This document shows positions 20,787 to 62,047 of a DNA stretch of 64,000 bases, piece by piece. A program made the position numbers and the translations under genes. Below the pieces are notes generated by a model. It saw only the letters and a program-made list of their open reading frames with translations. It did not search any database and was not told the DNA's origin. The stretch is from Daphnia pulex (Eukaryota > Arthropoda > Branchiopoda > Diplostraca > Daphniidae), in contig NC_060026.1 in the NCBI RefSeq assembly GCF_021134715.1, positions 12,081,001 through 12,145,000 of the forward strand, read 5' to 3'. Position 1 is the stretch's first letter. The number at the start of each line of letters is the position of its first letter.

Positions 20787-21098
20787 AGTGGGGGATGGTG
20801 TATTACGTTCGAGTTGAAATGTGATTGCGGAAAACTCAAAATCGGAATTATTGTCGGGGGATGGTGTATTACGATCGAGTTGAACTGTGATTGCGGAAAA
20901 CTCAAAATCGGAATCATTGTCAGATTTGGTGTTAGCGCAACGCCCAATCTCGGGTGAATGCGAATTTAACTCATTCTTATTCTTTTCTTTATTGGCTTCC
21001 TTGCCTTTCTGTAATTTCTTCGAGTCAGATTCGGCATCTGAATGGGAGGATGGAAGAACATTCCAAGAAGGTAAAAGAAAAAAAGATTTCAGGTGCAC
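20400..21098 (-). pseudogene. antisense Ser/Lys-rich ORF with internal repeats and one in-frame stop
   Basis: One minus-strand frame is open for about 230 codons except for a single TAA at 20658-20660, and it ends at a GTGAGT donor-like site 10 bp after the Amt stop. It encodes a low-complexity acidic/basic protein with two tandem copies of SDFEFSAIT-QL-RNTPSP and two copies of a DAESDSKKLQKGKEANKE-like block. In the first block copy AATAAA reads Asn-Lys, whereas the second has AAATAA, which creates the stop. The repeats resemble nuclear Ser/Lys-rich proteins. I do not recognise the gene, and its expression is doubtful. It could be a recent partial duplicate. Confidence 0.4.
20790..20922. repeat. 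two-copy tandem repeat of about 70 bp
   Basis: The block GGGGGATGGTGTATTACG...GATTGCGGAAAACTCAAAATCGGAAT occurs twice head to tail, with copies starting near 20790 and near 20857 and few differences. It lies within the antisense Ser/Lys-rich ORF. A second, dispersed pair (about 20658-20730 and 20988-21056) shares CTTCCTTGCCTTTCTGT. Confidence 0.8.
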
Positions 21099-42200: not shown

Positions 42201-45200
42201 AAAAACCACAGGAAAACTCCGTTTAGGGGGAAATCAGAAATTCTTTTTTTCCGACAGTGTCGACGTCAACCCCATGCTGTGACGGTCGACCAAACCGACA
42301 AAAAAACTAAAGAAACGTAAAAAAAATTTTTCCAGCTGCGACCATATAATCTCCCGCGTGAGTGGTGAAGATCAGGGACACCTGACGGCGTGATGTTACA
42401 CTACTTGAACTCAGGTGCGCCTGCAGAAAAGTGAAAATGAAAGTAGTAGCGCTAGAATAATCAAACTAGGGCTGGAGGTCGAGATCTCACGAGACGGCCT
42501 TCTCTGCTGTCACCCGGTACTGTAGCTCTTTTAGAGGACAACGGGAATTCGATAATTAAAAATCGGGACTTGTAATAACGGAAGGAAATATAAAGAAAGA
42601 AACCAGTTGACAGATAAAAAGACGTCAGCATATTTCAACAACGAGATTCTTTTGAGTTTGTTTCCAGCTATTTGTCCTAAGATCCGGCGCAAAAAATAAA
42701 AAAGACACTCAATTTGGGCGCACAAGGTCTTTTGTGTCGTTTTGGGATGTGGTTATTTTTTTTTTTAGGAGGTGGGTTTTATTTTGGGATTTTATGGCCA
42801 CCGCAAAAAAAAAACAGAGTTGAATGGGGAAGCAGATGGGCGTTGCCCAAATGATGTCCGCAAAACCAATTCGGATGTCATCAACCGAACATTATATCGA
42901 AAATAGACAAAATAATCAAAGAAATTCAAAATTCGAACTGGGGAAATTGCAGAATCACTGGACACTTTCATCACCTACAAGAGTTCGATTAATGTCTTTC
43001 CATTGAAAAATCGCAGACGGATATTTCCGAATCAGGTGAAGGTTTAATATAGATACACGTCCTTGATTGTCTGTCCCCAATTCATTGATAGTCTATCTAT
43101 AGGCTGCGCATGTGCGTATCTATCTCCTTATTGATGTTGGATTGACGCAGGTGAACGAGTCTGATGCCCATAAAAGTTTAGGTGCTTAATTTCGTCAAAT
43201 ATGCGTTCTATTGCTACATGGGTATTTTTTTTGTTATTTTCGTATTCGTGGCGTCTGATGGCCGTCAGTTCGGATGGACGACGGTTGAAAGCCTCCATCA
43301 TCCACAGGCACTTTGCTCTGTCATCCGGTAACGAAGGAAACCACAACGGACGGCATTGTGGACACGAATCCAACGAGACGGGCTCTGCTCTGATGTGACG
43401 GGACCGGTGCTGTGTAGGAGTGTCGGAAGAATTCGGGTTGGGTCATTATATGCAGATGTCGGCGATGCTGAAAGCGAAACTGCTATGTCCAGACGGACAG
43501 ACGTCATTCACGGTAACGATATATGTGGCAACCTACTGATTCTATTATTCCACGTATCGCGTGTACATTAAAAGTTACTTGTATTATGAAAATGTTGAAT
43601 CAAATTCCATCACAATTGACCGTATAAATAGAATTGAATTAGGATTATGTCTTCATTGGTCCATTTTTTGGGGCTGGTCGAAATCACATAGCGGTTCGTC
43701 TATTATCAAGCGGCCCCAAGACCAGCAATATAATTATAGACTGTGGATAGAGCCTTGGCATTTGCGTTTGGGGACGGCCGAGTCATTCCGGTTTGGGTAT
43801 AATCGCCCAATGAATGTAATAAACGGCCGGAGCGCATAGGGAAAATATACACCGTGACCGAAGTTATAGTTATACACAATCCGGAATGTCTGCATTATAT
43901 AGACAGCGCTGGATTTCCAAGAGCTTCAAGAGTCCGAGACGAAAGTGATGACAGCGGCTGGATCACTATAAATAATCAAAATCAAAGGCAGCCTCATTTT
44001 TCCTAGACCGCTAATAACACTCGATCATCAATTTGATGGATGAAGGTTAGTACACATTTTTTGATAAGTAAAAATAGAAATAAAGTTTAAAAATAGCTAA
44101 CACGAAATGTTAAGTTGGTGAGAGTAACAGCTGTTTCTATACTTCATTCACGTAGTTCTGACTTTGTCTACGTCATGGCGGTCGATTCGAAAATGTATTT
44201 TTATAAATAGCAGCTCCGTGATGCTTTGCAAATGGGCATGTAACGGTACAGATCACGACGGAGTTTCGGCTCTCCACAGAATTACGGCACGCGCAGCCAG
44301 TTTCCTTGTAGTATATTAGGCACCGTGTTTAATTAGATCCGGGGCCGAAAAAAGGATATTCAAACAAATAATATTGTTTGAACAAAAGAATTGAAAAGAA
44401 AGAAGTTATTGTTGTATTAAAAAATCCAGCGCGGATTTATTTAGAAAAGCTAGTCAACAACAGCATATAAAATGTGCATTTACCTTTTGAAATTTCAAAT
44501 TTGAATGTACAGCAGTAAATATAATATCCATTTGCGATGCCGTTTTACGAGCAGAGAGTAATAATAAAAGTATTCAATTCCGTTAATTTAATGCGGGGTA
44601 CTCAACAAGTGACTATAGAGCCGCTAAAATTATTCGTGTGATTAATCGCGCAAGCTCGTCTAGCGTTACATGATGGAATCAGCCTTAGTCACTCTAGTCC
44701 GCGTGCCTGTTCATATAATGAGGTGAAAAAATGACGCAGCATAAAGCGTGTGCTGATCGGACTGAACGGAAACGAATATAATACGTAACGAGCTAGGCGA
44801 TCAGCAAATGACCGTATATGGGGAATCTTTCAACTTTTATTGGACGTCAGCAGCGCTCGTCAATATTGTATGCGCAACGATTTTTATTACCCAACAACGA
44901 CCCATATTCCTAGTCCGGACATGACCAGAGAAAAACAAAAGAAGCTGAAATATAATTCCGTATCACATATTAGGCTGGCTGGCTATGTGTCCACATCCGG
45001 CGAGAGAAATGTACGTATAATAAATGCGTTGGCCTTATTTGCTTTATCGGTGGAAAAAGAATTAACGGGCTAGATTTTTAGATCATTTTTTTAACCCCCG
45101 GATTTTGTATGCCAATCTTCACATGGTGAATGGACACACCTAACAGCAAAACGGGTTGGTCATGATAAAAAGGCTGTGCAGCTGGTATCAACTTGTCGAA

Positions 45201-45656
45201 CCGGAAATAAATTTTGGTCCACAATGGTCAGACAGATTTTTAATTGCTGGATGGCCGAGTTCCAGCATGTCCCGTAATACTGCCGGACATATACATTCGT
45301 TGGTTATGCACGAAGCTCTTGCGGTAGTACTACCGCCGGTCGTTCTCAGCTTATATGCCGTGGAAGTCTGGCTTAATTAAAAATACTCTGCGCATCTTAG
45401 GGACGGTTGTTCACATCAAATCAGGTTGTGACTGACAAGCAAAAAACTCCCGGAGCAAATAAATGTAGGACGGTGTCCTGTTGTAAAACAAATAGCAAAT
45501 ACACGTTGGGCATCGGTGAGGGTTTATGCTCAACGTTACCGTCATTTTCAATAACAAAATTTGAATTAAATTATGCGTTTTTTTATTAAATGAAATAACA
45601 GTATATAAATGATGTAGACATGATGAAACGTGTGACACAATTAAATAACTTGCAAA
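39258..45656. other. 6.4-kb gene-poor region
   Basis: No gene is supported on either strand. It contains CTT/TTC tracts near 39655-39690, scattered poly-A/T runs and two TATA-like words, TATAAATA near 43966 and TATAAATAG near 44200, both plus strand. The first is followed 60-80 bp later by a 10-nt ATG-to-GTTAGT stretch that could be a tiny first coding exon, but no later exon was found. 3' flank repeats of the tandem cluster occupy 45111-45500. Confidence 0.4.
45111..45500. repeat. duplicated 3' flank of cluster gene A
   Basis: A block starting TGCCAATCTTCACATGGTGA is shared with 53708-54140 and, in its second half, with 49652-49880 (shared: ATTGCTGGATGGCCGAGTTC). All three lie downstream of a paralog of the Tyr/Arg/Pro-rich secreted family, so the flank was duplicated together with the genes. 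Confidence 0.85.
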
Positions 45657-45697: not shown

Positions 45698-46618
45698 TTA
45701 TGGTCGCCAATAGATACCGCTAGCTGCTAACGTGTTTTGAATTTCTTGATTCAACGCAGCCGTCCATGCCGACCAGTATCCAGTTCCAGCGTGAGTTCCA
45801 GACAGAAAAGCGTTAAGAGGGTCATTAAGAGCTTTAGTGTTATCGGCAATCGATTCGTACGGGTCGCCCACCACGCAAATACAGACATCGCCATCGACGC
45901 ACGTTTTAGCAGTCGACGTCGTTACACCACCCGCTCTGAGATAATCACAATCATCGTCGTCGTATGCTAAATCGCTGGGGGAGGTGACGCACATGACCCC
46001 CACACTGTTGAAGCGTCGACTTTGTTCGCACAATTGCTTCCGATAACTATGCGAATCAAACACATCGGAGTACATATTCATCTTGTGAAACCTGACGAAA
46101 TTCTCAATTGTCAAACTGGGACTGATTTGCAATCGTTGGTTGTCTGCGGCCCAGCAAATTCCGTATTGCTGGTAGCTGTTGGATGAACGGCAACTTGTTC
46201 CAGTGACGGCCGCACTGCTGGGTCTAGCAGTGCTGGTGGTCGGTGCTGGTGCTGGACGGTAGTTGGTGTTGGAAGGAGCTGCTGCTGGCCTCTGAGGACG
46301 CTGGTAATGGTAGTTATTGTACGTAGGACGTCTTACCGGATAGGCTGGACGTCGATTGTAGTTGTAATAAGGACGATAGTACTGAGCGGACGCCTGTTGC
46401 TCTCCAAGTTCGGCGTCTTGACTTGCCACCAAACCGAAGAGGAAGGCACCACAGCAGAGAAATAAAAAGACAGCCTAATCAAATTAACAAATACTTGATT
46501 TTTAATTTAGTTTCTAGCATTGAAGATTGAACTTACAGCAATTCAAAACATACAGTAAAGCTACTATTTTCTGGCATCTTACCGCTAAGATAGCGCCGAC
46601 GAGGTTTTTAAAAGCCAT
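45698..46618 (-). CDS. secreted Tyr/Arg/Pro-rich protein, cysteine-rich C-domain, paralog A
   Basis: Exons 46618-46583 (12 codons, MAFKNLVGAILA) and 46474-45698 give 270 aa. The joined N-terminus, with AVFLFLCCGAFLFGLVA, is a signal peptide. A low-complexity part follows (QYYRPYYNYNRRPAYPVRRP, then Ala/Pro/Ser-rich). The C-terminal domain of about 160 aa holds eight cysteines in the order SC, IC, LC, MC, DC, TC, VC, IC. Its conserved segments are SNSYQQYGICWA, RLQISPSLTIENFVRFHK, LCEQSRRFNSVGVMC and CVVGDPYESIADNT, and the end is ASGIYWRP. I do not recognise the family. The Tyr/Arg/Pro part suggests a structural, mucus or cuticle-like protein, the cysteine part a disulphide-stabilised fold. 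An AATAAA lies about 31 bp past the stop. A TATAAAA is upstream (46753-46747). Confidence 0.85.
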
Positions 46619-46746
46619 ATCTTTAAACTTAATTGTCTTTCGCTGAGGTTTAACGAAAATCTGAAATCGCAGCAGCTTGCTGGTCTTCTTCAACTTCCGT
46701 AGGCAACAGAGCGAGAACTGAAGGTCAGCTCGGTCAAACCAACGAG

Positions 46747-46753
46747 TTTTATA
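46747..46753 (-). promoter_or_regulatory. TATA box of paralog A
   Basis: TATAAAA on the minus strand, 129 bp upstream of the ATG, within a promoter block (about 46680-46830) that recurs upstream of the three other paralogs. Confidence 0.55.
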
Positions 46754-46830
46754 AAGGTAGCTAAACTTCCCTTAAGGCAAGTTTTAGAAAAACGTCTTGC
46801 GCAATGTTGGTTGGTACGGACATCTCCGAA

Positions 46831-47547
46831 GTGATGGGATCGTTTATCGTTTTCTACACTACTTCCTTGCTTGGGCATTCACTTCGTTTGCTTCCGCACA
46901 TCTCTGTAAGGAACGAAATTCCTTGATTTTGCACAAAATAAGTTGAGAATCACGTTTGCTCCGATCGGCTCCGGTTGTTTCCAGCTCCGCGTATAATTCG
47001 CAGTCTCCTGTTTAATAATACTTTACAAAATCAACTTGGCTAATTCTTTAAACAAAATTGCACTCTACCAACATCTACATTCCAAAAAAAAAAAACACAG
47101 AGTAGTAAGGATACCTTTGACAATTAATGGGTACCATGTTTTACATCCTTATTTACTTCATCGTTCATCTATCCAAAAATTATTATTAGATGAAGGCTAT
47201 ATTGCAAACCTATCAAGAGTCTTTTATTGTGTTGTCTTTGTATATTTTGGTTAATATGTTTTTACTATCATATTGCATGTCGGACACAACTCATTGCAAT
47301 ATACCGAAAATGAATTAATACTAGTTAAGAATTATAGAGTCGAAATAATCTGAAGAAAAAATAGGAGAAATATTATTTATTGTAATATAGGCCTATAGAT
47401 GAAAAAAATAACAAAAACAAAAAAACAAACATAATTTCAGGGAAAATTTAGGATTTAAGAAAAAAGAACGAAGAAAAATAAATCCATTTATACGGGTCGA
47501 TTGTCATTCGATGATCGTTCTGCGCATTTATGATGAATACAGTATTT
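46831..47547. other. spacer between paralog A and C1q-like gene 1
   Basis: AT-rich spacer with distal promoter sequence of paralog A and, near 47510, the 3' flank of the C1q-like gene. No gene is seen. Confidence 0.4.
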
Positions 47548-48650
47548 TTAAAGGGAGACGACGATTTCCTCCTCCAGCATGAAACCAAGGAAATTCGCTT
47601 CATACAATTGCACTTCGTTTGATGAATAGGAAACTATCCTCAACAAGACATAATCATCTGTTTTTAACGACAGTATCGACTGGAGGGCCAACGGACTTCT
47701 TTGAAAATCGACAGTGTTTGCCTCACTAACATAACTCTCTTGACTTCCAGACCCAGCAGCGTTCGATTGAAGCGAAATTCCTAATCGAACATCAATAGAT
47801 GATGAAGCTGGAAATTTCGCCAGTCCATTGAATAAAAAGAAATAAATTCCTGGTCGTGGGGCTATGAATACTCCATTCTGAATATTCATGGCACTTCCTA
47901 CGTTCAGTATCTCGGAATTGAATGAAATCTGATAAGGCCAATCAGCGGATAATGGAGAGGTTCTCTGGACGAAGAAATAGACGGGCGTTGATTTGACGTT
48001 GTCGTATCCGATCCATTTCTCGAAACCTTTTCATCACAAGTTATAGAATTAAGTAAAAGATAATAATTGTAATTGAATAACTCGTAAAAACTCATAAAAA
48101 TAAAATTCTTACCCGCATCATCAATGGGTTTTGTGAAATCACAGTAAACGGATTCCATTACTGAAGATCCCATGACGGAATAAAATCCGCTCCAAATGTG
48201 GCCAATCATTTTTAAATCACTGCATGAAGATGGCAGTCCGCTTATGGCCACTGCTGATTGATTAGTGCTAATTGGGACAGAGTCGAAATCGGCGGCTACT
48301 GCGCGATCGTTTTTCTCTCGTAACAAGGAAGTTAAAAGCGAATCTTGTCGTTGAACTTTGGTCTCTAGTTCAGTCACTTTCGACTCCAAACTCTTAACGA
48401 GTTCTTTCATTTGAAACTTTGGCAAATGGAATACAAAACATTAAGCCATCATTTAAAATCGATGAACTGAATTGGCTGGACAAATAAATGAAGTGTGAAA
48501 ACAAAATTCAATTGTTCTTACATAATTCTCCTTAAGTTGTAGGAATTCTTCTTCTAAAGAAAAATCTGCGCCAGTCGACCCAGTCGTCAAACAGATCAAA
48601 ACCAACAACAAACCTATTCCAATGGGTGAGGCAGAAGACAAATTGGCCAT
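47548..48650 (-). CDS. secreted coiled-coil C1q-like domain protein 1 (3 exons)
   Basis: Exons 48650-48522, 48416-48113 and 48026-47548 give 303 aa. MANLSSASPIGIGLLLVLIC starts a signal peptide. A coiled coil follows (ELVKSLESKVTELETKVQRQ), likely for trimerisation. Next comes a short module CSDLKMIGHIWSGFYSVMGS...SVYCDFT, which looks like a remnant of the fibrinogen/contactin-associated-type module seen in the other C1q gene. The last exon encodes a C1q/TNF-like beta-sandwich with the signature FIAPRPGIYFFLFNGLA and the end NFLGFMLEEEIVVSL. C1q-domain proteins of invertebrates often act as soluble pattern-recognition lectins; the role here is inference. Neighbours are paralogs A and B of the unrecognised secreted family. 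Confidence 0.85.
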
Positions 48651-50045
48651 TTTATTGTGACAAACGCGTCTTGCGGATCAACTGTGTTTTCAAACTGGAC
48701 GTGCGTTTCAATTTATTGGACCGGCCATTTGTTTGGTTTAACTCAAAGGTAAATAATAAATCGAGATAAACGAATCTTTGTGTTTAAATTATCTGCCGAA
48801 AGAATAAGATAGTAACTTGAATGTCAGTTGCACAATTATTAGTTTTATACGCGACTATGGGAATTTTTTCATGAGATGAAAGAAGCGAGCTAGCCATTTA
48901 AATTCTGTACGTTTTTTTTTTTACTTTTAGGGGGATTTAGAGGAAATTTCTGTTTTCCCTGTTCTGATAGCATCGCATAACATCAAGTGAATTAATTGTA
49001 CTGACTGTCAGAATTTAAATTTTTAAAATTAAATGAAGATTTTCTCGTTTCGTTAGAGAAAAATTACACAAACGCGGTTTCGTTTGTTTAAGATAATCAA
49101 CGTGCGACAGGCACTCACGCTATTATGTAATAAGCTTCGATCAGCGCCACAATCAGTTTTTCGTTTTTCTACTTCTGTTGGTTTTATTGTCTTTTCTTAC
49201 TCCAAATAGATTTTAGTGTACGGGCTGAAGTTGCTTCTTTTCTTTTTTGACATAAATGCATTTCGCTGCTGTTGCTCCTCTTTTTTTAAATGTAATGCAG
49301 TCACCGGCAAATAAAAATAAATTTCATACATCGATAAAGCTCCAGTATATATTTGATTATACAAATACAAATATTTCACTAGATCGTTTCTGGCGTCATC
49401 TCAAGGCCCCTTGGAAATAGTAGCCTACCGGTAACACAAATTTAATGAGGAAGTAATGAACAGCATGTTTGGCTTTGACTTACAGTAGAGACTAGAACAG
49501 GCAAAAAATTTTTGAAGCAAAGAAATAGAACATGTCCTAGCTGAGATAAATTCGTGTACGCTCAATGTTATACCAGTACGCCACTTCCGACAACCGAAAC
49601 ATGTTCAAATATTTGAATAACCATGTAGGCTAAAAGTATCAATCAATAATGGTCAACAATAGTCAGACAGATTTTTAATTGCTGGATGGCCGAGTTCCAG
49701 CGTGTCCCGTAATACTGCGGACATATATATTCGTTGGTTATGCACGAAGCTCTTGCGGTAGTACCGCCGGTCGCTCTCAACTTTCCGTACAAGTCGGGTT
49801 TATTTAAAAAATACTGTGTGCGCTTCTTAGATAGGGACGGAGTCCTGTTGTTATTGAACCAATGGCAAAATTTACGTTGGGCATCGCGGTGAGAATTATT
49901 GAATGAAATGTAACAACTTCTAATTGACGTACATAATGAAACATGTGACACAAATAAACTTGTGAATTTCTTTGTATTAACTTCTTGTTGAAAATGAGTT
50001 ACCATAAAGGCTAGAGTTTAAAATGGAATAATTAGTTATGATACA
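48651..50045. other. spacer between C1q-like gene 1 and paralog B
   Basis: It holds the promoter of C1q-like gene 1 and, at 49652-49880, a copy of the duplicated 3' flank of the tandem family. No gene is seen in the rest. Confidence 0.45.
49652..49880. repeat. duplicated 3' flank of cluster gene B
   Basis: Shares long near-identical stretches (for example ATTGCTGGATGGCCGAGTTC, GGTTATGCACGAAGCTCTTG) with 45235-45350 downstream of paralog A. It shares the first of these, but not the second, with the block downstream of paralog D. The first part of the block is missing here. Confidence 0.85.
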
Positions 50046-50969
50046 TTATGGTCGCCAGTAGATACCGCTAGCTGCTAGCGTGTTTTGAATATCTTGATTC
50101 AACGCAGTAGTCCATGCCGGCCAGTATCCAGGTTGAAACACAGGAGCGTCAAAAGGGTCATTGGGAGCTTTAGTGTTAGCGGCAATCGATTCGTACGGGT
50201 CGCCCACCACGCAAATGCAGTCGTTATTGATGCACGATTTAGCAGCCGACGTATAAGTACCGCCCGCTCTCTGATAAAAACAATCATCGTCGTCTTCGTG
50301 ATTGCTGGCGCTGGTGATGCACAGAATGCCCACACTATTGAAGCGTCGACTCTGATCGCATAGTTGCTGCCGGTAGCTAGTCGAATACAGGACATTGTCA
50401 TACAAATTAATCTTGTGAAACCTGACGAAATTCTCGATTGTCAAACTGGGACTGATTTGCAATCGCTGGCTGTCCGCGGCCCAGCAAATTCCGTATTGCT
50501 GGTAGCTGTTGGATGAACGGCAACTTGTTCCAGTGACGGCCGCACTGCTGGGTCTAGCAGCAGTGGTCGGTGCTGGTGCTGGTGCTGGACGGTAGTTGGC
50601 GTTCGAAGGAGCTGCTGCCGGTCTCTGAGGACGCTGGGAATGGTAGTTATTGTACGTAGGACGTCTTACCGGATAGGCTGGACGTCGATTGTAGTTGTAA
50701 TAAGGACGATAGTACTGAGCGGACGCCTGTTGCTCTCCAAGTTCGGCGTCTTGACTTGCCACCAAACCGAAGAGGAAGGCACCACAGCAGAGAAATAAAA
50801 ACACACCCTGAAAATCAACAAATTTGTTGTTAATTTGTTGATTTAATAGTAAATAGGCTACATCTTCAGTTTCTATCAGCGAACTTACCAAGTAATTAAA
50901 AATGTGCAAGCTAATTTTCTGGTATCTTAATACCGCTAACATAGCGCCGACGAGGTATTTACAAGCCAT
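50046..50969 (-). CDS. secreted Tyr/Arg/Pro-rich protein, cysteine-rich C-domain, paralog B
   Basis: Exons 50969-50934 (MACKYLVGAMLA) and 50807-50046 give 265 aa. The architecture is that of paralog A, with the signal peptide joined as GVFLFLCCGAFLFGLVA. The Tyr/Arg/Pro region is almost identical to that of A. The cysteine-rich domain differs most between LCDQSRRFNSVGILC and the next cysteine (acidic loop EDDDDCFY). The first-exon donor is GTATTA, not the GTAAGA of the other copies, so splicing may be weaker; the upstream TATA is changed to GGATAAAA. Reading straight through the exon 1 donor also stays open for a while, so an unspliced form would change the signal peptide. The gene is intact in frame. 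Confidence 0.8.
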   Translation of the reverse strand: MACKYLVGAMLAVLRYQKISLHIFNYLVSSLIETEDVAYLLLNQQINNKFVDFQGVFLFLCCGAFLFGLVASQDAELGEQQASAQYYRPYYNYNRRPAYPVRRPTYNNYHSQRPQRPAAAPSNANYRPAPAPAPTTAARPSSAAVTGTSCRSSNSYQQYGICWAADSQRLQISPSLTIENFVRFHKINLYDNVLYSTSYRQQLCDQSRRFNSVGILCITSASNHEDDDDCFYQRAGGTYTSAAKSCINNDCICVVGDPYESIAANTKAPNDPFDAPVFQPGYWPAWTTALNQDIQNTLAASGIYWRP

Positions 50970-51039
50970 ATCTTTAAAGTTAATAGTTCTTCGTTGCTTT
51001 TCGCCGAGGTTAAACAAAGATCCGAAATCGCAGCAGCTG

Positions 51040-51190
51040 GCTGGTCTTCTTCAACTTCCGTAGGCAACAGAGCGAGTACTGAAGGTCAGCTTGGTCAAAC
51101 CAACGAGTTTTATCCAGGTAGCTAAACTACCCTTAAGGCAAGCTTTAGAAAAACTTCTTGCGCAATGTTGGTTTGGTTGGTACGGGCATC
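51040..51190. repeat. duplicated promoter block, paralog B
   Basis: The block with CTTCAACTTCCGTAGGC and GGTCAAACCAACGAGTTTTAT recurs upstream of the other paralogs at about 46680-46830, 52860-53010 and 55300-55460. In this copy the TATA position reads GGATAAAA on the minus strand. Confidence 0.8.
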
Positions 51191-51783
51191 TCCGAAGTGG
51201 GATCGTTGATTGTGTGTTTGTTCCACTTCCTTGCTTGGGCACTCGGTTGTTTCCGTACATCTTATCTCTTATAAATTTCTTATTTTGGAGGCTCAAGAAG
51301 TCATAATTATAAATTAAGGTCAAACCGAATCAGACTAATATGCCAACGTATTTTTGACAGTTTAAAACAGCTGAATAGTGAATACTTTAAATAAGGAAAG
51401 CTAATTACAATTAGTATATATAGTCAATTATACGTCGGTCTACTCTAGGACCTTTCAGTCTTTTTGCTATTGCTTCCAGAACAAGGCATCGTGTTTTCAG
51501 AAATTTTATGTTAATCATTGGAATTTAATTATCCTTGTTTAATTCTCTTGGCTCCAGCTAGCACTTCGTTGCCAAGTCATCTAATATCGCCTGGGAAACA
51601 ATAAATTTGCGAGTCTATGACCTCTAGGATTGTTTTGCGCATTTTGGGCGATTTGTGCGCAATTAATGTTACCAGTTCCAAAAACAATAAAAAATCTCTC
51701 AAAGAAATGAAATACCGGTAATAACCGTGTGTGTGTATTTGGGATCAACCAATAAAGAAACGTGCAATACAACATGTTAAGTT
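51191..51783. other. spacer between paralogs B and C
   Basis: The spacer has sequence shared with 55560-55900 upstream of paralog D (for example GACAGTTTAA/GACAGCTAAT context and TTGTTTTGCGCATTTTGGGC at about 51630). The latter word lies in the 3' flank of C1q-like copies, so this may be the scar of a deleted C1q gene. No intact gene is seen. Confidence 0.45.
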
Positions 51784-52797
51784 CTATTTTCCAGTAAAAT
51801 TTGGACTGATCAAAGAGCTGAAACTAGATGGAAGTTGTAATGGTTTCCAGTTGATACCGTTAGCTGCTAAATGGGTTTGAAGATTTTGATTCAGTTGAGC
51901 ATTAAATGCCTCCCAGTATCCAGGTTGAAATACAGGAGCACTAAAAGGGGAATTGGGTGAATTAGTGTTGGTGGCAATCGATTCGTACGGGTCTCCCACC
52001 ACGCAAATACAGTCGTAATTGATACACGATTTAGCAGCCGACGTTGAAATACCGCCCGCTCTCTTATAAAAGCATTCTTCATGGCCGCTGGAATCGCTGG
52101 TGGAGGTGCACAGAATGCCCACACTGTTAAAGCGTCGGCTCTGCTCGCATAATTGCCGCCGATAGCTAGTCGTGTATACCAGAGGGCCATCAAAATTCAT
52201 CTTGTGAAATCTAACGAAATTTTCAATTGTCAAATTGGGACTGATTTGTAATCGCTGGCCTTCCGGAGCCCAGCAAATTCCGTATTGCTGGTAGCTGTTG
52301 GATGAGCCGCATGATGATCCACTGATAGCCGTACTGGGTCTAGCAGTGGTCGGTGCTGGAGCTGGTGCTGGGACTGCTGGGGCTGGGGCTGGGGCTGGGA
52401 CTGGGGCTGGCGCTGGCGCTGGTGCTGGCCGGTAGTTGGTGCTAGAAGGAGCTGCTACTGGGATCTGAGGCCTCTGGTTGGCGTAGTTATTGTAGGCAGG
52501 ACGTCTCACTGGATAACCTGGTCGTTGATTGTAATTATAATAAGGACGATAATTCTGAGCAGAAGCCTGCTGCTCTCCTGACAAAAGCTCGGCGTCTTGA
52601 CTTGCCACCACACCGAAGAGGAAGGTACCACAACAGAGAAATAAAAACACAACCTGAATATATTTAAACAATAAATTTATTGAATTTAATACACTTCCAG
52701 TTTCTATCAATGAGCTTATGCAGCAATTAACAATGGAAAAGCTAATTTTCTGGCGTCTTACCGCTAAGATAGCGCTGGTGAGGTTTTTATAAGCCAT
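51784..52797 (-). CDS. secreted Tyr/Arg/Pro-rich protein, paralog C, with Ala-Pro repeat and extended C-terminus
   Basis: Exons 52797-52762 (MAYKNLTSAILA) and 52653-51784 give 301 aa, the longest of the four. A run of about 15 Ala-Pro dipeptides is inserted before the cysteine-rich domain. All eight cysteines of the domain are kept, and a ninth is added at the start (GSSCGSSNSYQQYGICWA). The family end IYWRP is replaced here by INWKP followed by 19 more residues, that is, the ancestral stop was lost. It is the most divergent intact copy, mainly in the loop between cysteines 4 and 5 (SDSSGHEECFYKR). A TATAAAA lies upstream at 52937-52931. Function unknown, as for the other copies. Confidence 0.85.
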   Translation of the reverse strand: MAYKNLTSAILAVRRQKISFSIVNCCISSLIETGSVLNSINLLFKYIQVVFLFLCCGTFLFGVVASQDAELLSGEQQASAQNYRPYYNYNQRPGYPVRRPAYNNYANQRPQIPVAAPSSTNYRPAPAPAPAPVPAPAPAPAVPAPAPAPTTARPSTAISGSSCGSSNSYQQYGICWAPEGQRLQISPNLTIENFVRFHKMNFDGPLVYTTSYRRQLCEQSRRFNSVGILCTSTSDSSGHEECFYKRAGGISTSAAKSCINYDCICVVGDPYESIATNTNSPNSPFSAPVFQPGYWEAFNAQLNQNLQTHLAANGINWKPLQLPSSFSSLISPNFTGK

Positions 52798-52930
52798 ATA
52801 TCTTTAAAGTTATAAGTTTCCGTTACTTTCACTAAGGTTAAACGAAGATCCGAAATCGCTGCAGCGCTGGTCTTCTTCGTAGGCTACAGGTCGAGTATTA
52901 CTGGAGGTCAGCTCGGTCAAACCAGCGAGT

Positions 52931-52937
52931 TTTTATA
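52931..52937 (-). promoter_or_regulatory. TATA box of paralog C
   Basis: TATAAAA on the minus strand, 134 bp upstream of the ATG, in the shared promoter block. Same position as in paralog A. Confidence 0.55.
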
Positions 52938-53010
52938 CAGGTAACTGAACTACCCTAAGGCAAACCTTTAGAAAAACGGACGACTTGATGCGCAAGGTTG
53001 GTTGGTTGGT

Positions 53011-53707
53011 ACGGACATCTCCGAAGGGGGGGATCGTTTATTGTTTTTCATACCCTACTTCCTTGATTGGTCATTCACATTCATTTTGTTTCCGCGCATC
53101 CCTTTAAGGAAGGAAATTTCTTTGATTGAGCACAAAATAAGTTGTGAATAAATGTTAGTAATAGCTCCGGTTGTTTCCTGCTCCGCGTACAATAATGACA
53201 AAGTAATAGTATAGTTACCAGCAGTATAACCGATCGTCGATTTTGAAATGTTTTTCTCGTGTAGCCTAAATAGAATGACGACTTTTTATGTTTGACAATG
53301 GGGACCGTTTTCCGCATCTTTAAATTGTACTCATCGTTCATCTTACTTCCGAAAATTTTTAATTGAAAAGCTATTCAAACATCTTCTCTATGTAGTCTAT
53401 TCACTGACCCTTCGCTGTTACAAAGTCTATTCGTATTATATTATTAGCGTTTCGAGAGCCAGCAGGTCAGCACGGGTGAGACAACTCTCTATATATATCT
53501 GTGTCACGTACACCAGCCCTGGAGGCTATATAGGGAATTTTTCGAGGTTTTTTTATTGCGTAGTTTTCAAATGGTACGGAGATCTCCGAACTCGCTGCTT
53601 CCTGAAGATTTACTTTCGTACTCGTCGGCTCATTTAATGCCCACGCTATGAAAAAAAAAATATCCAACGGGCTCGATTTTGAGATCGCTTTTCCTCGGAT
53701 TTTTGTA
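53011..53707. other. spacer upstream of paralog C with a duplicated block
   Basis: The part at about 53390-53630 is repeated at about 56100-56320 (shared CCCTGGAGGCTATATAGGGA and TTTTCAAATGGTACGGAGATC). Each copy contains a CTATATAG word. No gene is seen. Confidence 0.6.
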
Positions 53708-54140
53708 TGCCAATCTTCACATGGTGAATGGACAGACCTAACAGCAAAACTGGCCGGTCATGATAAAAAGGCTGTGCAGCTGGTATCAACTTGTCGAACC
53801 GGAAATAAATTTTGGTCCACAATGGTCAAACAGATTTTAAATTGCTGGATGGCCGAGTTCCACCATCTCCACCATGTTCGTAATACTGCGGACATATATA
53901 TTCGCTGGTTATGCAATTTTCGGGTGTACCGCCGGTCGTTCGCAGCTTTCCGTGCAAATCCGGTTTAATTAAAAATGTGTGTGCGCTTCTAAGATTTGGA
54001 CGGTTGTTCACATCAAATCAAGTTGTGACTGACAAGAAAAAAACTCCCGGGGAGCAAATAAAAATAGGACGCTGTCCTGTTGTACCTGTTGAACCGTTGG
54101 TTGAACCACTGGCCAAATTTACGTTGGGCGTCGCGATGAA
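53708..54140. repeat. duplicated 3' flank of cluster gene D
   Basis: The longest copy of the 3' flank block, nearly collinear with 45111-45500 downstream of paralog A, with small indels. It shows that A and D derive from a duplication that carried the gene plus at least 0.6 kb of 3' flank. Confidence 0.85.
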
Positions 54141-54315
54141 GGTTTAATATGCTCAGCTTAGAAAAATCTAGTTAAATTATTAAATGAAATATGACACCGA
54201 CGTATATAATGAAACATGTGACACAAGTAAACTTGCGAATTTATTTGTATTAACTTCTTGTTGAAAATGAGTTACCATAATGGTTAGAGTTAAAAATGGA
54301 ATAAGTTATTATAGA

Positions 54316-55234
54316 TTATGGTCGCCAGTAGATACCGCTAGCTGCTAACGTGTTTTGAATATCTTGATTCAACGCAGCCGTCCATGCCGGCCAGTTTCCA
54401 GTTCCAGCGTAAGTTCCAGACGAGGTTCCAGACGAGGTTCCAGACAGAATAGCGTCAAAAGGGTCATTGGGAGCTTTAGTATTATCGTCAATTGATTCGT
54501 ATGGGTCGCCCACTGTGCAAATACAGACTTCGCCAGTGATGCATTTTTTAGAAGCAAACGAAGTTACACCGCCCGCTCTCCGATAAACACAATCATCGTC
54601 GTCTTCTTCGAAATTGCTGGGAGGGGTGACGCACATTACCCCCACACTGTTGAAGCGTCGACTCTGTTCGCATATTTGTTGCCGATAGCTAGGCGAATCG
54701 AAAAAACCAACATACAAATTCTTCTTGAAAAACCTGACGAAATTCTCAATTGTCAAACTGGGACTGATTTGCAAGCGCTGGCTGTCTGCGGCCCAGCAAA
54801 TTCCGTATTGCTGGTAGCTGTTGGATGAGCCGCATGATCCACTGATAGCAGTGGTCGGTGCTGGTGCTGGCCGGTAGTTTGTGTTGGAAGGAGCTGCTGC
54901 TGGCCTCTGAGAACGCTGGTAATGGTAGTTATTGTACGTAGGACGTCTTACCGGATAGGCTGGACGTCGATTGTAGTTGTAATAAGGACGATAATACTGA
55001 GCGGACGCCTGTTGCTCTCCAAGTTCGGCGTCTTGACCTGCCACCAAACCGAAGAGGAAGGCACCACAGCAGAGAAATAAAAAGACAGCCTAATCAAATT
55101 AACAAATAATTGTTTTTTAATTCAGTTTCTAGCATTGAACTCCAACAATAAGCAATTCAAAACATACAGTACAAACTACTTATTTTCTGGCATCTTACCG
55201 CTAAGATAGCGCCGACGAGGTTTTTAAAAGCCAT
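54316..55234 (-). CDS. secreted Tyr/Arg/Pro-rich protein, cysteine-rich C-domain, paralog D
   Basis: Exons 55234-55199 and 55089-54316 give 269 aa. It is closest to paralog A: same first-exon peptide MAFKNLVGAILA, same intron ends and the same Tyr/Arg/Pro stretch. It differs by loss of an Ala/Ser segment before the cysteine-rich domain and by a triplicated SGTSSGT-like insertion near the C-terminus (a 15-nt slippage repeat). The acidic loop is FEEDDDDC. Its TATA position reads TATCAAAC, so core-promoter strength may differ from A and C. The frame is intact. Confidence 0.85.
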
Positions 55235-55460
55235 ATCTTTAAAATTAATAGTTTTCGTTGCTTTTCGCTGAGGTTAAACAAAGATATGAAATCACAGCAG
55301 CTGGCTGGTCTTCTTCAACTTCCATAGGCTACAGAGCGAGTACTGAAGGTCAGCTCGGTCAAACCAACGAGTTTGATACAGGTAGCTAAACAACCCTTAA
55401 GGCAACTTTTAGAAAAAGAAAAAAAAACAATGTCTTGCGCAATGCTGGGTTAGTTGGTAC

Positions 55461-56519
55461 GGACATCTCCGAAGTGGGGATCGTTTATTGCCTGTTTGTA
55501 GCTACTACTTCCTTGATATGACAACAACTCAGATGTTTCCGCAAATCTATCTTTTATAATAATTTTTTTTTGTTGCTACAGTTGGACGCTCAAAGAATAA
55601 CTATTAAGGTCAGACCAAGTAGTCAGACTGATTCGCCAACGTCTTTTTGACAGCTAATACTGCTGACTTAACAGGCTTAATAAGTTAATAAGAGAAGCTA
55701 TTTGAAGTCAATAGTATGTCTATGTATGCACTCTGGGACGACCTTACAGTCGTGCGTGTATTCAAGAATTCTATATAGCCTATATTAATGGAATTCAGAT
55801 ATCATTTTCATTCTCTTATCATTTTTTGGCCCCAGCGCATCGTTTTCATATTGCGTTGGAAATAATTACATTTTTTAAGTCGACGATTGTTTTGCGCATT
55901 TTGGGCGACAGAAATTCTAGCTCGAAGGGAGGCGACGATTTCCTTCCTCTACGACACAAAATTTGTGAAATGAGAGTAACATATAGAAGTTATCAAACAA
56001 ACTCACCCCATATCAAACGCTGGCCTAATTAACCTGCCACCGTCTGACACTTGACATTGTCGCCTGATTTCATGCAGTCCCGAGGTAAATTCACTCTATT
56101 CACTGACCCTTCACTGCTACAAAGTCCATAGAATATATTATATCAGCGTGTCTAGAACTAGGTCAGCTCGGTTGAGACAACTCTCTGTATTTCTGTGTCG
56201 CGTACACCATGCAGCCCTGGAGGCTATATAGGGAATTCCAAGAGGCTTCTTATTCCGTGGTTTTCAAATGGTACGGAGATCTCCGAACTTGCCGCCGCTT
56301 GCCGCTTCCTGATGTTACTGGGTATACAGGCTTTTTTTGCAGATGGAATGTATTCGTGTATTCAGTAAGTCAATTTGCATACACATGTTTAAATTTTTTA
56401 GAGAAATTCACCCCTTAAAAAATTAGAAACAAATGCATTATTTCTTCTTCTTCATACACTATAATCTAATTTGTTTAAAATCATTTTCATGTTAGCGGTT
56501 ATTAGTCAAAGATTATGTT
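55461..56519. other. spacer with C1q-gene debris and a duplicated block
   Basis: It contains a C1q 3'-end relic near 55880-55985 and the block at about 56100-56320 shared with 53390-53630. No intact gene is seen. Confidence 0.5.
55880..55985 (-). pseudogene. short relic of a C1q-like gene 3' end
   Basis: GATTGTTTTGCGCATTTTGG followed by GGGAGGCGACGATTTCCTTC and GTGAAATGAG matches the last codons and 3' flank of the C1q-like genes, where the last codons read LEEEIV-SL. Only about 100 bp are left, with a stop-laden frame. Confidence 0.55.
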
Positions 56520-56790
56520 GCGCATTTCGAGTGATATTAGCTAGTTCATAGGGAAGCGACAATCTCCTCCTCCAACATGAAACCGGTGAAATGAGTGTAA
56601 TGGTTACCGTTGTCAAACAAGGTCTCCTTATCTGGTGATATCACAGAAAATCCACCCAGACTTGATCAGCACCTAATTTCAAGTTCAGCGTTGACTGGAC
56701 GGTCAACGGACTCAACTGAACATCAACGGTGCTTATTGGCTCTTCAACATGACTTACATGACCCAAACCGAGTCGACCCTCGCTAAAAAA
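56520..56790 (-). pseudogene. broken last exon of a third C1q-like gene
   Basis: The DNA parallels the final exon of C1q-like gene 2: GGGAAGCGACAATCTCCTCC, AACATGAAACCGGTGAAATG, GTTGACTGGACGGTCAACGG. It has internal deletions and lost reading frame in the middle (the stretch around 56630-56660). The upstream exons are missing. It lies just 3' of the intact gene in the same orientation, so it is a tandem duplicate that died. Confidence 0.75.
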
Positions 56791-57066
56791 AGACCAACTT
56801 GTAAATAAATTACCGGTCTCGATGTCATATTTGAGCTATGTTCGTAATTTGGATATTTTGAAAGTCTATCAATCAAAAATCGTTTTTTACTTTTTGCGTT
56901 TACATATCTGGTAACAGAAAAATTGAACAGAACAAAAATGTGTTCCTTTATTCAGTGAATATATTTTCATTTTAGAATCTAATACCTTATGTTTAGTCAA
57001 ATAAAACTCATGTCTGTTCAGTTTATATTATCATTTGGCGCATTTCGTTTCGAATGATATCAACAC

Positions 57067-58919
57067 TTAAAGGGAAGCAACAATTTCCTCCTCCAACACG
57101 AAACCAGTGAAATGAGTATGATGGCTTACATTGTCAAACAAATCCACCCCTGATGCGGAGAAAATCTCCAGCCAAACTTGATCGCCTTTTTTCAATATCA
57201 GCGTCGATTGGAGGGTCAACATACTATCCTGACCAGTGACGGTGTTAACATCTTCAGCCCAAGCCAACCCCATTGAATTATTGTTCAACTTAAGAAAAAC
57301 TCCTAATTGAACAAAAGATGATGAAGTTGGAAAACTTGCCAGTCCCGAGAAAGAGAAGAAGTAAATTCCCGGTCGTGGTGCCGTGAATATTCCCGTTGCC
57401 AAATCCATGGCATTTCCCTCGTTAAGTAGTGTTGAATCAAACGGAATCGGAATTCCAGTCGAGTTGAACGAAGAACTTCTCTGGACGTAGAAATGGACGG
57501 GCACCGATTTCACGCCGACGTACCCGATCCATTTCTGGAATCCTGTCGATCAATAAAAAAAAATAATACAAATATTTATTGCAATTGAATTATTCGGAAA
57601 AATTTGAAACATTTATACCCGCATCATCAGAGAGTTTCGTGAAATTGCAATAAACGGATTCCATCATCGTAGATCCCATGATGGAATAGAATCCATTTAG
57701 GGTGTGACCAATTAACCAAAGATCCTTACAAGATGTGGGCATTTTTGTCATGGGGACCATTCCAGTACATTCGAATCGACCAAGTGTGTGGATGCCTGAC
57801 GAAGTTTCGAGTTGTGTTCGGCCAAAATTCAACCGAGTGACAGGCAAAACATTTTTATCTGTGATGACACCTGTACGGATTTTAATCCAAAAAGAAATTA
57901 TTGAGTTATTTTGATAATTATCATTACGAGAAATGCTTGCTGCTCGTTTTTACCGTCGTCGACTAACTGAATTGGCGCCGCAGCATCACAGTTGCACTTA
58001 GCAGAAGAATCGACGCAATTGCCATCGATTCCGCACTGGCAGGTGTGAATTCCGTCCGTGTTTTCTCCAGTCCAAAAATATTGCGCATTTCCGTCTCTGT
58101 CATTCCACCAAGCGTAGGGGATAGCAATAAATTCGAAAGGGGCGTAGTAGCAATCGTACTGGAATTATCAGGGAAATTGCAGAAGTTCATTTCACTTTCC
58201 TCAACGAATAATTTACCTTAATCGACTGGTGACATTCTGACGATAATTCGACCAACGCTTCCATCTGCCCGATGGACGCGTTGTAATTGATAGATCGTGA
58301 ATAACATCCAGGATCAGCACAATGACCCACGTCGATAGGGGATTCACTATCGTGTGGAATGGATGTAGATCCTTTTATGGAAACATTATTTAATTATTTT
58401 GAATTCAAAGAAAAGATTAAATTTTGAATCCATTTTACCCGACGTCATGTCGCAGTAAACGTAGATCGGGTTATCGCCGACGCCTTGGCCGTCCGGATCG
58501 ATCCAGTGCATTCCGGACTGAAGAGAAGGATTCGCCATCCAAAGTTCGCGACACGTCCTTGGCATTGCAGCACTCTTTGTAATTGACTGAATTAAATTTG
58601 GGCGATTATTTGAAACTATTTCTGACTCAGTTTGTGGTTTTGGTTGTCCGGATTGAAGCAACAGGGAAGTCAAAATTGTTTCTTGTTTTTGAACTTTTTT
58701 TTCCAGTTGGGCATTTTTGGACTCTAATTGCGTTAGTTTTTCTTCAAGTTGAATATTTTTTTCTTTCAGTTGATAAACTTCCGTCTCCAGCTTGATTTCC
58801 ACTTCTTTTAATCTGCCTTCCAAGGAAACAATGGTTCCAGCGGACGACGTACTGAAACACATCAAAATAAAAAATAGTCCTGTCTTGATAAATAATGGCC
58901 CGGTGTGGAAGTGTACCAT
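57067..58919 (-). CDS. secreted coiled-coil / fibrinogen-contactin-type / C1q-like protein 2 (5 exons)
   Basis: Exons 58919-58439, 58371-58217, 58158-57954, 57870-57619 and 57542-57067 give 522 aa. A signal peptide ending near FILMCFSTSSAG is followed by a coiled coil (LEEKLTQLESKNAQLEKKVQ). Next is TCRELWMANPSLQSGMHWID...VYVYCDM-like, the start of a fibrinogen-type module. Exons 2-3 carry the continuation seen in contactin-associated/neurexin-IV-like proteins (NYNASIGQMEALVELSSEC, YDCYYAPFEF, YAWWNDRDGNAQYFWTGE, CQCGIDGNC, CNCDAAAPI). Exon 4 repeats the short CKDLWLIGHTLNGFYSIMGS...SVYCNFT module found in C1q-like gene 1, and exon 5 is the C1q-like sandwich with FTAPRPGIYFFSFSGLA. It is probably a secreted oligomeric recognition protein; ligand unknown. 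Confidence 0.85.
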
Positions 58920-59330
58920 TTTCGCTTAACTTTTGTTCAACGTTTGAACTGGATTCGTCTAAGCGATGTATTCTCATTTATTGGGCTCACTAATAGCTAC
59001 AGCGTCAATATAATTCAGATACCGAATATCTAAATCTCTTTCACAAGAAGATAACCTCACCTTTTGAAACTTAGGGTTAAAAATAACCTTTCTAGTTTAC
59101 TCTGCCTGCTTTGTTTATTCTTGATAGTCAGTCTCGGCTAAACCAAACGCAAGCGTATGTTGGTTTTACTTTGACCGACCCTTTAAGGCTATATCTTATC
59201 AAGTCTAGTAAGGAGACCTTCGTACTTGTTTTGTCTTGGGTTATTAGTGAAATATTCACCTGCTTTTATTCCAATAAAAACGCAAAGTAAGACTTAACAA
59301 GCGTTGTCAATGATTTATTTTACCGTTGTA
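58920..59330. other. 5' flank of C1q-like gene 2
   Basis: Upstream region of the gene. It includes CGGTCAAACC-like remnants of the cluster promoter block (GGCTAAACCAAACGC on the plus strand). No gene is seen. Confidence 0.35.
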
Positions 59331-59700
59331 CCAACGCACGCAATACGCAAATACAGTTGTCATTGAAACACAACGGGTAAGAAGAAGCTGTGCATCATCG
59401 TCGTTATAGGACTTTTGGATATCTTGTGAAAGATGGTCGATATTTTTTGCGATAATAAAAGCCTTGATATGCTGTCGAACAGCTCGACCATTGTTATAGG
59501 AGAAAAAGTACTGGGCAGATGCTATATAGAAATTTTATTGAAAAAAAAAAAAAAACAACTAATAATCCATGTAGGAAAATGAACCCATCAATAATTAGAC
59601 GTTTAATGTGCATTCAACAAGGCGGTCGATGTAAGTTACGTTATATGTTCGTGGTTTGTGTTTTGAATATTCCTATCCCAGTATCCAGGTTGAATTAAAT
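59330..59700 (-). pseudogene. relics of a fifth copy of the Tyr/Arg/Pro-rich secreted family
   Basis: ATACGCAAATACAGTTGTCATTGAAACAC at 59345-59373 parallels the exon part coding CICVVG, and TTATAGGAGAAAAAGTACTG near 59496-59515 parallels the part coding QYYRPYY. Further on, TGTTTTGAATATTCCTATCC and CCAGTATCCAGGTTGAA at about 59660-59695 match the 3' end of the coding region. The last piece lies on the wrong side of the other two, so the copy was rearranged or two broken copies overlap. Confidence 0.6.
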
Positions 59701-62047
59701 AACAATGTTTGAGTATTTTTAGAAATAAGAAACATTAAGATATAAATGTAATTGAATATCAAATACTTGTTACGGATAATATTGAAATTTGGCAAACATA
59801 AAGCATAGCTCGATTTGGGTAGTTATTCAGGGGGATTGGTGAGGTTGACTTGAGGGCTGTCAAAATAGTGTCAGTGGAGACGAAGCATGGCCAATTCGCC
59901 ATGAGACAAAGAAATATCATATAAAAGTAGTTTGTGAGGATTTAAAAAAAAGATTTATAGACCTCATCTCAACTCTCACTGCTGAAGAACTGCGGTTGCG
60001 TCTCCTATTCCTATGCTCCGATTTTTCTGACAAGGTGTTCGCGGTAACAATAACAAACAATTTTATCTTCTAAGTCTTCTCTTCGCAGTCTATGTTTTTT
60101 TCGTGTTGCCTACTTTTTACTAATCTAAAATGTCTGAAAAATCATTTAAATGTTTTGTGTGCTCAGCTGTAGTTAAAGTCGGTATAGTATGTTTTAAACA
60201 ACAGGTCATTTTCATCTTTTTCATGGATTCCTTAAAACAATTGGGTTTGGCAGGGTTTGGTCTTAGAACTTTATCATGTGGGAATGAGGATTGCAAAGCT
60301 GAGTTCAATAGTTTTTATAGTGAAGATCATGTTCTTAATTTTGCCCATTAAAGAAACCCAGTCAAGAATTAAGCAATAGTTGTGAGCCTTGCAATCTCCT
60401 AACGAGCCATGTATTGTTCATTGTTAATGATATGGGCCTAAACAATCATTTTAGAGTCATACGTTCACTTTTCATAACATATGTCTGAAATAGACAAATC
60501 TGTAACAAATATTGAGCTAGAGCTAAAAACAAAATCAGTCAATCTGCAATTGATTATTCATTGTTTTAATTTATTAGTGGGATATTTAATGGTATTGCTC
60601 AGGTCTGTGATTTAAAAACATGATTGGAAAGTAGGGCTACCAATTGCTAAGGACCACTCAGATTTAATTCTCAAGTGAAAAGGAATTGTTATAAGTCAAT
60701 AAGGCCTTATATCGCCCCAAATTCCCTTTCGCTTTCAAGAAATGGATAGTGGATACAGCTTAATTTTCTTTCCATCAACTTTTTCCTTCGCAAAAATAAT
60801 AAGATTAAAAGAAATGGAGGTGCGAAGGGTGAATTCTCGGGAATCACTTTTGGCATAGAATCAATACAGAAAATACCGAGGGAATAAGTCACGCTTAAAC
60901 GTGACGAGTTTGAACGACAGGCATGATGGGCATCCATCATAGTTATTTTACTGTTACACGTTACAGAATGAAAAAGGCTCACAAAACCTCCATTAATGAC
61001 TCGACAATATTTTCTCTTGTAAATTTCTGTTAGGTTTTTCACTGACCGTGATGTACTTTCACGATTGAACAACTTGTCTGTGGACCTTAATCGTCCAAAC
61101 TCAACAGGTTTTCTCTTGTAACTTATATACATCCCCCAAAAAAGAGTTGTGATTCGGCAGTTTCCGGGAAATAGCCGATTCTGCACAACGTTTTGTATAA
61201 ACTTAATAGACTGTCGGCCTTGTTAATGTATTTATTGCGTATGTACTTTATCTTCTACATAGGTATATATATCTGTTACGCAAGAGCGCAGCATCCCCCG
61301 CTGTTGTTCGTGCCCAAACGGACTCTTGCTTCGGGCATTGAAAGTCGCTGTCCTCTTTTTTATTCCGTAAAGTCGCGCCAAAACCATCCGAAAGCCGGAG
61401 AAAAATCTGCATCGGAACGACGGCTGTTCACGGGAAGGAAGTATTTAGGACGAATGGAAATCAGGTAAGAGCTATAGTGCCGATTGAGATTATTATTGAA
61501 CGCGAACACGACGAGAGATCCAAAGTCTGGCCACACATTAAGACAGGGATATTTTGACTCGACATTTTCCAGTCGTGAGTGTGTAGTACACAATTGCGTG
61601 TTATCCGCCAGGAAAATAGTTTGCCGGGATCATATCGTCACGAGATTAAATAAGTGAGCCACTTAAATTCCGCGCGTCCTTTACCTTGAGGAGGATATAG
61701 GGAAATTACTTTTTCCCTATTCAGATAGGAAACCTTTTTAATAATTTGTTGTTTTGTAAAACAAACATTTTCTCGTTTCGTTTGGGAAAAATTCCACAGA
61801 CGCGGTGCCGTTTGTTTAAGATATTGTCAAATATTCAATGTGTGACAGGCAGCACACTTAGGCTAAAAAACAGAAAAAACTAAGTGGTTGACGAGATATA
61901 CGTTGCAGCAATAGGTCACGTTCCTTTAGAGATACAACAATAATATCAGTTTTATCGCCAAACGAAATGTCAGTCGACGTTTTACTTGACCTGGTACTTA
62001 GAGTTGTTTGCTTTCACGAGCTGAACGCATCACAGTTTTCGAAAATC
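59701..62047. other. 2.3-kb gene-poor stretch
   Basis: No gene is supported. A 73-codon plus-strand ORF at 60130-60351 (cysteine pairs CFVC and CGNEDC) has no signal peptide or known domain and could be part of an old mobile element. The rest is AT-rich. Confidence 0.4.

Follow-up and report, generated by a model that had tools for sequence, protein, structure and literature searches.

Introduction

Families of secreted cysteine-rich proteins confined to a single lineage have precedents. Among crustaceans, penaeidins are peptides that join a proline-rich part to a cysteine-rich part, and arasin 1, built on the same plan of a cationic Pro/Arg-rich arm followed by a cysteine-rich portion, is 37 amino acids long. 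The Tyr/Pro-rich cuticle or eggshell matrix proteins of arthropods combine a leader with a Tyr/Pro-rich low-complexity arm. Here we describe a locus of Daphnia pulex in which four paralogous genes, A to D, encode predicted secreted proteins (the Cys family) and which lies in a 64,000-nucleotide stretch of DNA (the window; contig NC_060026.1, here C10, positions 12081001-12145000) that also holds genes for C1q-like proteins. The Cys proteins are like the cuticle and eggshell proteins in having a leader and a low-complexity arm. With penaeidins and arasins they share the plan only, visible in protein A, where a cationic Pro/Arg-rich arm precedes the cysteine-rich part, and they differ in being far larger, in spreading eight cysteines over about 105 residues and in matching no Pfam family. 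The locus is best read as an array of genes for a secreted protein of narrow distribution, evolving by birth and death within a C1q-rich chromosome arm.

Further points of comparison come from Daphnia magna. In the parts of two reports on which we draw, a large Cladoceran-specific family found near the Pasteuria resistance loci is described as having members of 239-365 amino acids with cysteines, in a region that also holds a gene combining COLFI and C1q domains (PMC9894429, PMC11193740). It is given as having more than 100 members (PMC11193740), and its type 1 as carrying a predicted transmembrane segment at the C-terminus and, inside the cell, a YXXC motif (PMC9894429). The COLFI + C1q gene is itself placed close to the Pasteuria resistance loci (PMC11193740).

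Results

Four intact paralogs encode a two-part, predicted secreted protein

An earlier note, made from the letters of the window alone, had claimed four intact minus-strand paralogs of 270, 265, 301 and 269 amino acids, and our gene models bear this out. Genes A (45698..46618; exons 46583-46618 and 45698-46474), B (50046..50969; exons 50934-50969 and 50046-50807), C (51784..52797; exons 52762-52797 and 51784-52653) and D (54316..55234; exons 55199-55234 and 54316-55089) each consist of a first exon of 36 bases, a GT...AG intron of 108-126 bases and a long second exon. The N-terminal leader of all four proteins is strongly hydrophobic (19-residue hydropathy 2.52-2.79), in agreement with the signal peptide proposed for every intact member, the call being that of a Kyte-Doolittle scan and not of SignalP. 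Outside the leader the 19-residue maximum is 0.60-1.05, so that proteins A-D contain no second strongly hydrophobic stretch.

The leader is followed by a Tyr/Arg/Pro-rich arm and then by a domain of about 160 residues with eight cysteines, the architecture that had been described. The cysteine spacing, C-x11-C-x41-C-x12-C-x11..13-C-x15-C-x4..5-C-x1-C, is conserved and all eight cysteines are kept in each of the four proteins. Charges were computed for protein A alone, in which the arm (75 residues, with 10 Tyr, 9 Arg and 11 Pro, and with RP motifs) has a net charge of +6 and the Cys domain is acidic, with a net charge of -6. Gene C is the most diverged of the four and encodes a longer Pro/Ala linker plus a C-terminal extension.

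The family has no recognised relative in the collections searched

Homology searches covered Pfam, NCBIfam, PDB sequences, and viral, phage and prokaryotic collections, leaving out eukaryotic protein databases, together with the genome itself (133.2 Mb in 13 contigs), for which protein searches start with a loose first look that could miss distant copies. When the genome was queried with the Cys domain of protein A (E-value up to 1) or of protein C (E up to 10), four matches were returned each time, all of them genes A-D. The arm as query gave nine matches, namely genes A-D and five weak ones, and four of these five (L024, L025, L026 and L028) align in the low-complexity arm or its linker, the L024 alignment reaching slightly into the start of the Cys domain; no Cys domain was seen by eye in the translations of L024, L025 and L026.

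Whole proteins searched against Pfam at E up to 1 matched no family in three of four cases, and protein C gave only a sub-cut-off match of its linker to DEC-1_N (14 bits against a cut-off of 29.2). The Cys domains alone, at E up to 10, gave a single chance match to FBPase_C in one of the four (E 0.13). Within these limits neither a penaeidin nor a WAP (crustin) profile was matched, nor the C1q domain (PF00386), nor a cuticle or chitin-binding domain (Peritrophin-A, RR-type), for which the DEC-1_N match is the nearest hint. NCBIfam returned six families (E 0.0017 to 0.76), each in one of the four members; for the one of the six whose cut-off was shown it was not reached, and we read these matches as low-complexity chance. 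Protein A had one chance match by sequence in PDB (E 0.079) and a profile search of PDB had none. Neither the 104 pattern matches in viral contigs nor the 77 in prokaryotic genome contigs yielded a confirmed case, and phage records queried with the domain of protein C gave no match. A literature search, in which searching by sequence is impossible and supplements are not covered, found no description of the family. The earlier note had called the family unrecognised and had proposed profile searches of its cysteine-rich domain as a check; no described family was matched (Pfam up to E 10, PDB profile) and no credible relative appeared in any collection, so that the novelty looks real as far as those searches reach.

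Structure prediction, the other check proposed for this domain, gave no confident fold. Two AlphaFold models built on 4-sequence alignments had a mean predicted local distance difference test score (pLDDT) of 43.1 and 46.0, and a Foldseek comparison of the second model with PDB returned 172 matches, none with E <= 0.001 (best E 1.2). Given the low pLDDT and the lack of a significant Foldseek match, a fold assignment was dropped.

The four copies share promoters and flanks and show dN below dS over whole genes

In exon 2, identity to gene A is 83% for B, 70% for C and 84% for D, and the DNA matches between units run on into promoters and 3' flanks. Because exon 2 aligns throughout the family and promoters and 3' flanks match as well, the similarity is more than chance. 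Pairwise ratios of nonsynonymous (dN) to synonymous (dS) divergence by the NG86 method, six pairs per region, are 0.40-0.54 for whole genes, with dN below dS; the arm gives 0.17-0.26 and the Cys domain 0.47-0.58. Identity is 79-91% among the 260-base stretches that precede the start codons and 62-85% among the introns, an excess of promoter over intron identity that fits either constraint or gene conversion.

The promoter and 5' leader of gene A (46619..46840, minus strand, as for all features of the array given below) contain the motif TTCGGAGATGTCCGTACCA and, as read by eye, a TATA-like TATAAAA and an initiator-like TCAGT. Those of gene B lie at 50970..51206, where the motif has one mismatch, and those of genes C and D at 52798..53035 and 55235..55483. 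The 19-base motif TTCGGAGATSTCCGTACCA, with up to 2 mismatches allowed, occurs at seven places in the genome, six of them inside the array, and its backward control has no genome match. Genes A-D account for four of the six sites, and no gene follows the other two, at ~53.58k and 56.28k. A search for a second promoter element (18 bases, with 3 mismatches allowed) picked out the four live genes and no other place.

The two promoter-like stretches without a gene, at 53396..53600 and 56095..56297, show 82.8% mutual similarity over 203 columns, and their scores against the live promoters are reached by 0 to 2 of 300 shuffles. Without the motif, the first loses significance against every live promoter (45 to 241 of 300 shuffles), so that the motif is what links it to the family, and the second is significant against A and D only (0 and 1 of 300, as against 20 and 19 for B and C). 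A profile of the four units scores them at -0.8 and 5.5 bits, where a chance match in the reversed window reaches 5.9; a promoter profile built with both stretches included is circular for them. The two are probable dead family copies, a reading supported by the 19-base motif and, for the second stretch only, by its likeness to A and D outside that motif; 56095..56297 is the likely one.

Remnants of a diverged member accompany three of the units

The repeated unit of about 2 kb comprises the Cys gene, its promoter and, in units A, B and D, a 3' remnant; no C1q gene forms part of it. The 3' block of unit A (45064..45485) holds, at about 45.2-45.4k, a degenerate remnant of the C-terminus of a diverged family member, and the same remnant recurs in the 3' blocks of unit B (49641..49840), where the frame is open as it stands, and unit D (53666..54084), where it lies in pieces at about 53.8-54.0k. 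A genome search with one C-terminal remnant gave five matches, all inside these three. DNA similarity to the live genes beats all 200 shuffles in four of four comparisons for the remnants of A and of B; that of D is weakest, with 0, 1, 1 and 14 of 200 shuffles reaching its score against A, B, C and D.

These remnants uphold the claim of at least one broken copy of the family, in a place other than the region near 59.3-59.7k, where the case is weak. There a possible Cys-domain remnant was marked at 59345..59371. The 59.3-59.7k piece has scores reached by 3 of 300 shuffles against B and against C, and by 98 and 93 of 300 against A and D; its two short matches are out of order, and its profile score of 1.5 bits lies below the chance match of the reversed window. 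In view of the shuffle counts against A and D and of a score below chance, we regard a broken copy at this place as doubtful.

A surface-coat or matrix protein is the tentatively favoured function

Our leading interpretation, held with less than even confidence, is that the Cys proteins are surface-coat or matrix proteins; we rate it above a role as defence effectors, which in turn precedes partnership with C1q proteins and, last, membership in the Cladoceran-specific family. A Cys protein would be secreted to an epithelial surface, the cuticle, the gut lining or the haemolymph. Its conserved cationic Tyr/Arg/Pro-rich arm may bind polyanions or chitin, or cross-link via tyrosine, and would in this way anchor the protein, while the more variable disulfide-bonded domain might carry copy-specific binding. 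The protein would thus act in a surface coat, with a part in host defence possible, and the C1q neighbours would share its neighbourhood and some breakpoints, though not demonstrably its task. Consistent with this are the leader unaccompanied by another strongly hydrophobic stretch, the opposite charges of arm and Cys domain in protein A, the remnants and promoter-like stretches, dN below dS, promoters more alike than introns and the confinement of all genome matches to the locus, as well as the abundance of C1q genes and the non-sister relation of the two C1q neighbours described below.

Several points weigh against this interpretation. Arm-like low-complexity composition recurs in other genes, the collections searched hold no homolog of known function, and no fold was predicted with confidence. 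The dN/dS values stand without a significance test, and conservation of the arm could stem from gene conversion instead of selection. Since its ratio is 1.06-2.82 in five pairs, on small counts, and undefined in the sixth, the leader is without constraint by dN/dS.

The Cys proteins may instead be humoral effectors on a penaeidin- or arasin-like plan, in which the Pro/Arg-rich cationic arm hits microbes and the Cys domain stabilises or targets it. We consider this unlikely, though it has features of the locus in its favour, namely a cationic arm with RP motifs joined to a disulfide-type domain, and the tandem birth and death of the genes. In its mature form a Cys protein has several times the size of the known Pro-rich peptides; its Cys domain is acidic, no Pfam antimicrobial family is matched and whole genes show no excess of dN over dS. 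From D. magna, the consulted part of one report adds that the COLFI + C1q gene near the resistance loci is under long-term balancing selection (PMC11193740). For D. pulex, an excerpt of a 2009 immune survey states that no antimicrobial peptides were recovered from the genome (PMC2685406), which makes the defence role worth testing and is not evidence for it. In a fuller version, which would be a long shot, the Cys proteins are an undescribed family of large two-part humoral defence proteins, confined to one locus of one Daphnia lineage and evolving by birth and death beside complement-like C1q genes, and provide some of the antimicrobial repertoire that Daphnia reportedly lacks. If the proteins are merely lineage-specific matrix proteins, they make up an orphan family of the ordinary sort, and Daphnia has many of those; part of one report puts about 36% of D. 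pulex genes in Daphnia-specific families without homologs (PMC11193740).

C1q sequence is interleaved with the array and probably shares one duplication in part

Two C1q-like genes stand intact in the window, C1qa at 47548..48650 (303 amino acids; leader, coiled coil and C1q) and C1qb at 57067..58919 (522 amino acids; leader, coiled coil, COLFI-type segment and C1q), both on the minus strand; the coiled coils and the gene models were made out by eye, and the models have intact frames and GT-AG introns. Pfam C1q (PF00386) scores 35.5 and 66.4 bits in C1qa and C1qb against a cut-off of 23.7 (E 1.3e-08 and 3.8e-18), and the COLFI segment of C1qb 44.1 bits against 26.2. The two intact C1q-like genes of the earlier note are thereby confirmed, with the correction that the second is a COLFI + C1q composite. 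The same domain pair is described for D. magna gene 11F-21.35 in part of one report (PMC11193740), a likeness by domains that leaves orthology aside, and for the 'Neurexin/Complement C1q' paralog family of D. pulex in part of another (PMC4514973); it concerns the neighbour C1qb and not the Cys family. Sequence matches also identify broken C1q 3' ends at 56549..56754 and, upstream of gene D, at ~55855..56007, in keeping with the at least two broken copies proposed, and the interleaving of the Cys family with C1q sequence stands.

The blocks upstream of gene B (51651-51301) and gene D (55908-55590) are homologous (score 170, shuffle maximum 50), as are those upstream of A (47209-46887) and C (53380-53085; score 145, shuffle maximum 46). 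On the D side the block runs into a recognisable C1q 3' end, which scores 67 against that of C1qa, 78 against that of C1qb and 100 against the 56.5k remnant, reached by none of 200 shuffles each. The far end of the B-side block (51301..51651), at about 51651, resembles a C1q 3' untranslated region solely via its homology to the D block, and its C1q origin rests on D because on its own it matches the same three ends non-significantly (130, 35 and 7 of 200 shuffles). The C1q 3' end on the D side and the homology of the two blocks together make it probable that one duplication took a C1q tail with it.

For whole C1q genes we see no sign of co-duplication with the Cys genes, since C1qa ranks only 136th of 150 scored matches (283 candidates; 52% identity) in a search with the C1qb domain and closer copies lie elsewhere, genes about 0.3 and 1 Mb away reaching 68 and 66% identity. 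In the reverse search with C1qa the best relatives reach 51-54%, and C1qb (52%) is third by score after C1qa itself. C1qa and C1qb are thus not sister copies. The proposed co-duplication therefore holds for a C1q 3' end joined to the D unit, and to the B unit by homology, but not for whole genes, as no duplicated block contains both.

C1q is a large dispersed family in this genome: a genome-wide PF00386 search with 242 candidates yielded 150 scored matches, C10 alone accounting for 99, and part of one report counts 172 C1q genes in D. pulex by InterPro (PMC4514973). Among the C10 matches, three at 620699-641144 have an identical score and lie about 10 kb apart, and pairs occur at 360458/373673 and 357089/370304; these equal-score copies either arose very recently by tandem duplication or are duplicates of the assembly. 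At least one listed C1q gene falls in 18.0% of random 14-kb windows between 11 and 16.34 Mb and at least two fall in 2.4%, and the true figures are higher because the list is incomplete, C1qa itself being missing from it. With these proportions, the colocation of Cys and C1q genes is uncommon and, after the fact, not remarkable, and the C1q neighbours may stand beside the Cys family largely by chance.

These observations bear on the idea that the Cys proteins serve the secreted C1q proteins next to them as co-factors or ligands, and that joint work keeps the two together. The interleaving is real, the D upstream block reaches a C1q 3' end and the B block is homologous to it, about 0.7 kb lies between intact C1qa and the start of gene A downstream of it, and two listed C1q genes in 14 kb are uncommon by the null used (2.4%). 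We nevertheless hold such a partnership to be improbable: the 150 scored C1q matches are dispersed and the Cys family was found only here, the two C1q genes are not sisters, and a single listed C1q occurs in 18.0% of random windows, again a minimum. A promoter shared between C1q and Cys genes was tried and rejected, the summed score of six Cys stretches against the C1qb upstream region being reached by 18 of 300 shuffles, which is not significant; single Cys stretches gave 11 to 181 of 300 against C1qb and 82 to 262 against C1qa. The shared extracellular task that the earlier note derived from the neighbourhood is weakly supported.

Comparison with the Cladoceran-specific CS1/CS2 family

By description, the one basis of comparison here, both the Cys family and CS1/CS2 of D. 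magna are taxon-restricted and duplicated, with similar length and cysteines and with a COLFI + C1q gene in the region. Membership in that family is nonetheless very improbable, since proteins A-D have no second hydrophobic segment that could be the C-terminal transmembrane segment of type 1 (0.60-1.05 outside the leader), their YGIC, present in all four, lies within the Cys domain, preceded by no hydrophobic segment other than the leader, and so does not correspond to the intracellular YXXC, and four members were found here against more than 100 there; type 2, which is without the YXXC motif, may still accommodate them. Alpha-1,3-fucosyltransferase, a reported resistance candidate in D. magna according to part of one report (PMC9894429), has 135 exon-level matches (PF00852) on C1, C2, C3, C5 and C7-C10, mostly C7-C10; as a synteny marker for the D. 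magna resistance region, these matches are scattered over eight contigs.

Other features of the window

At 1703-3005 lies a near-perfect 1.3-kb inverted repeat, 95% identical to its own reverse complement and of the fold-back type of mobile element; one of its arms has 42 genome matches, several as inverted pairs. An exon of an ammonium transporter (PF00909, E 2.4e-21) occupies 19207-19731. Short direct repeats at 20646-21052 fall within long overlapping open frames on both strands, one of which weakly matches DUF7371 below the cut-off. Finally, a 60-base direct repeat with 88% identity, apparently unrelated to the array, occurs at 49036-49095 and 61764-61823.

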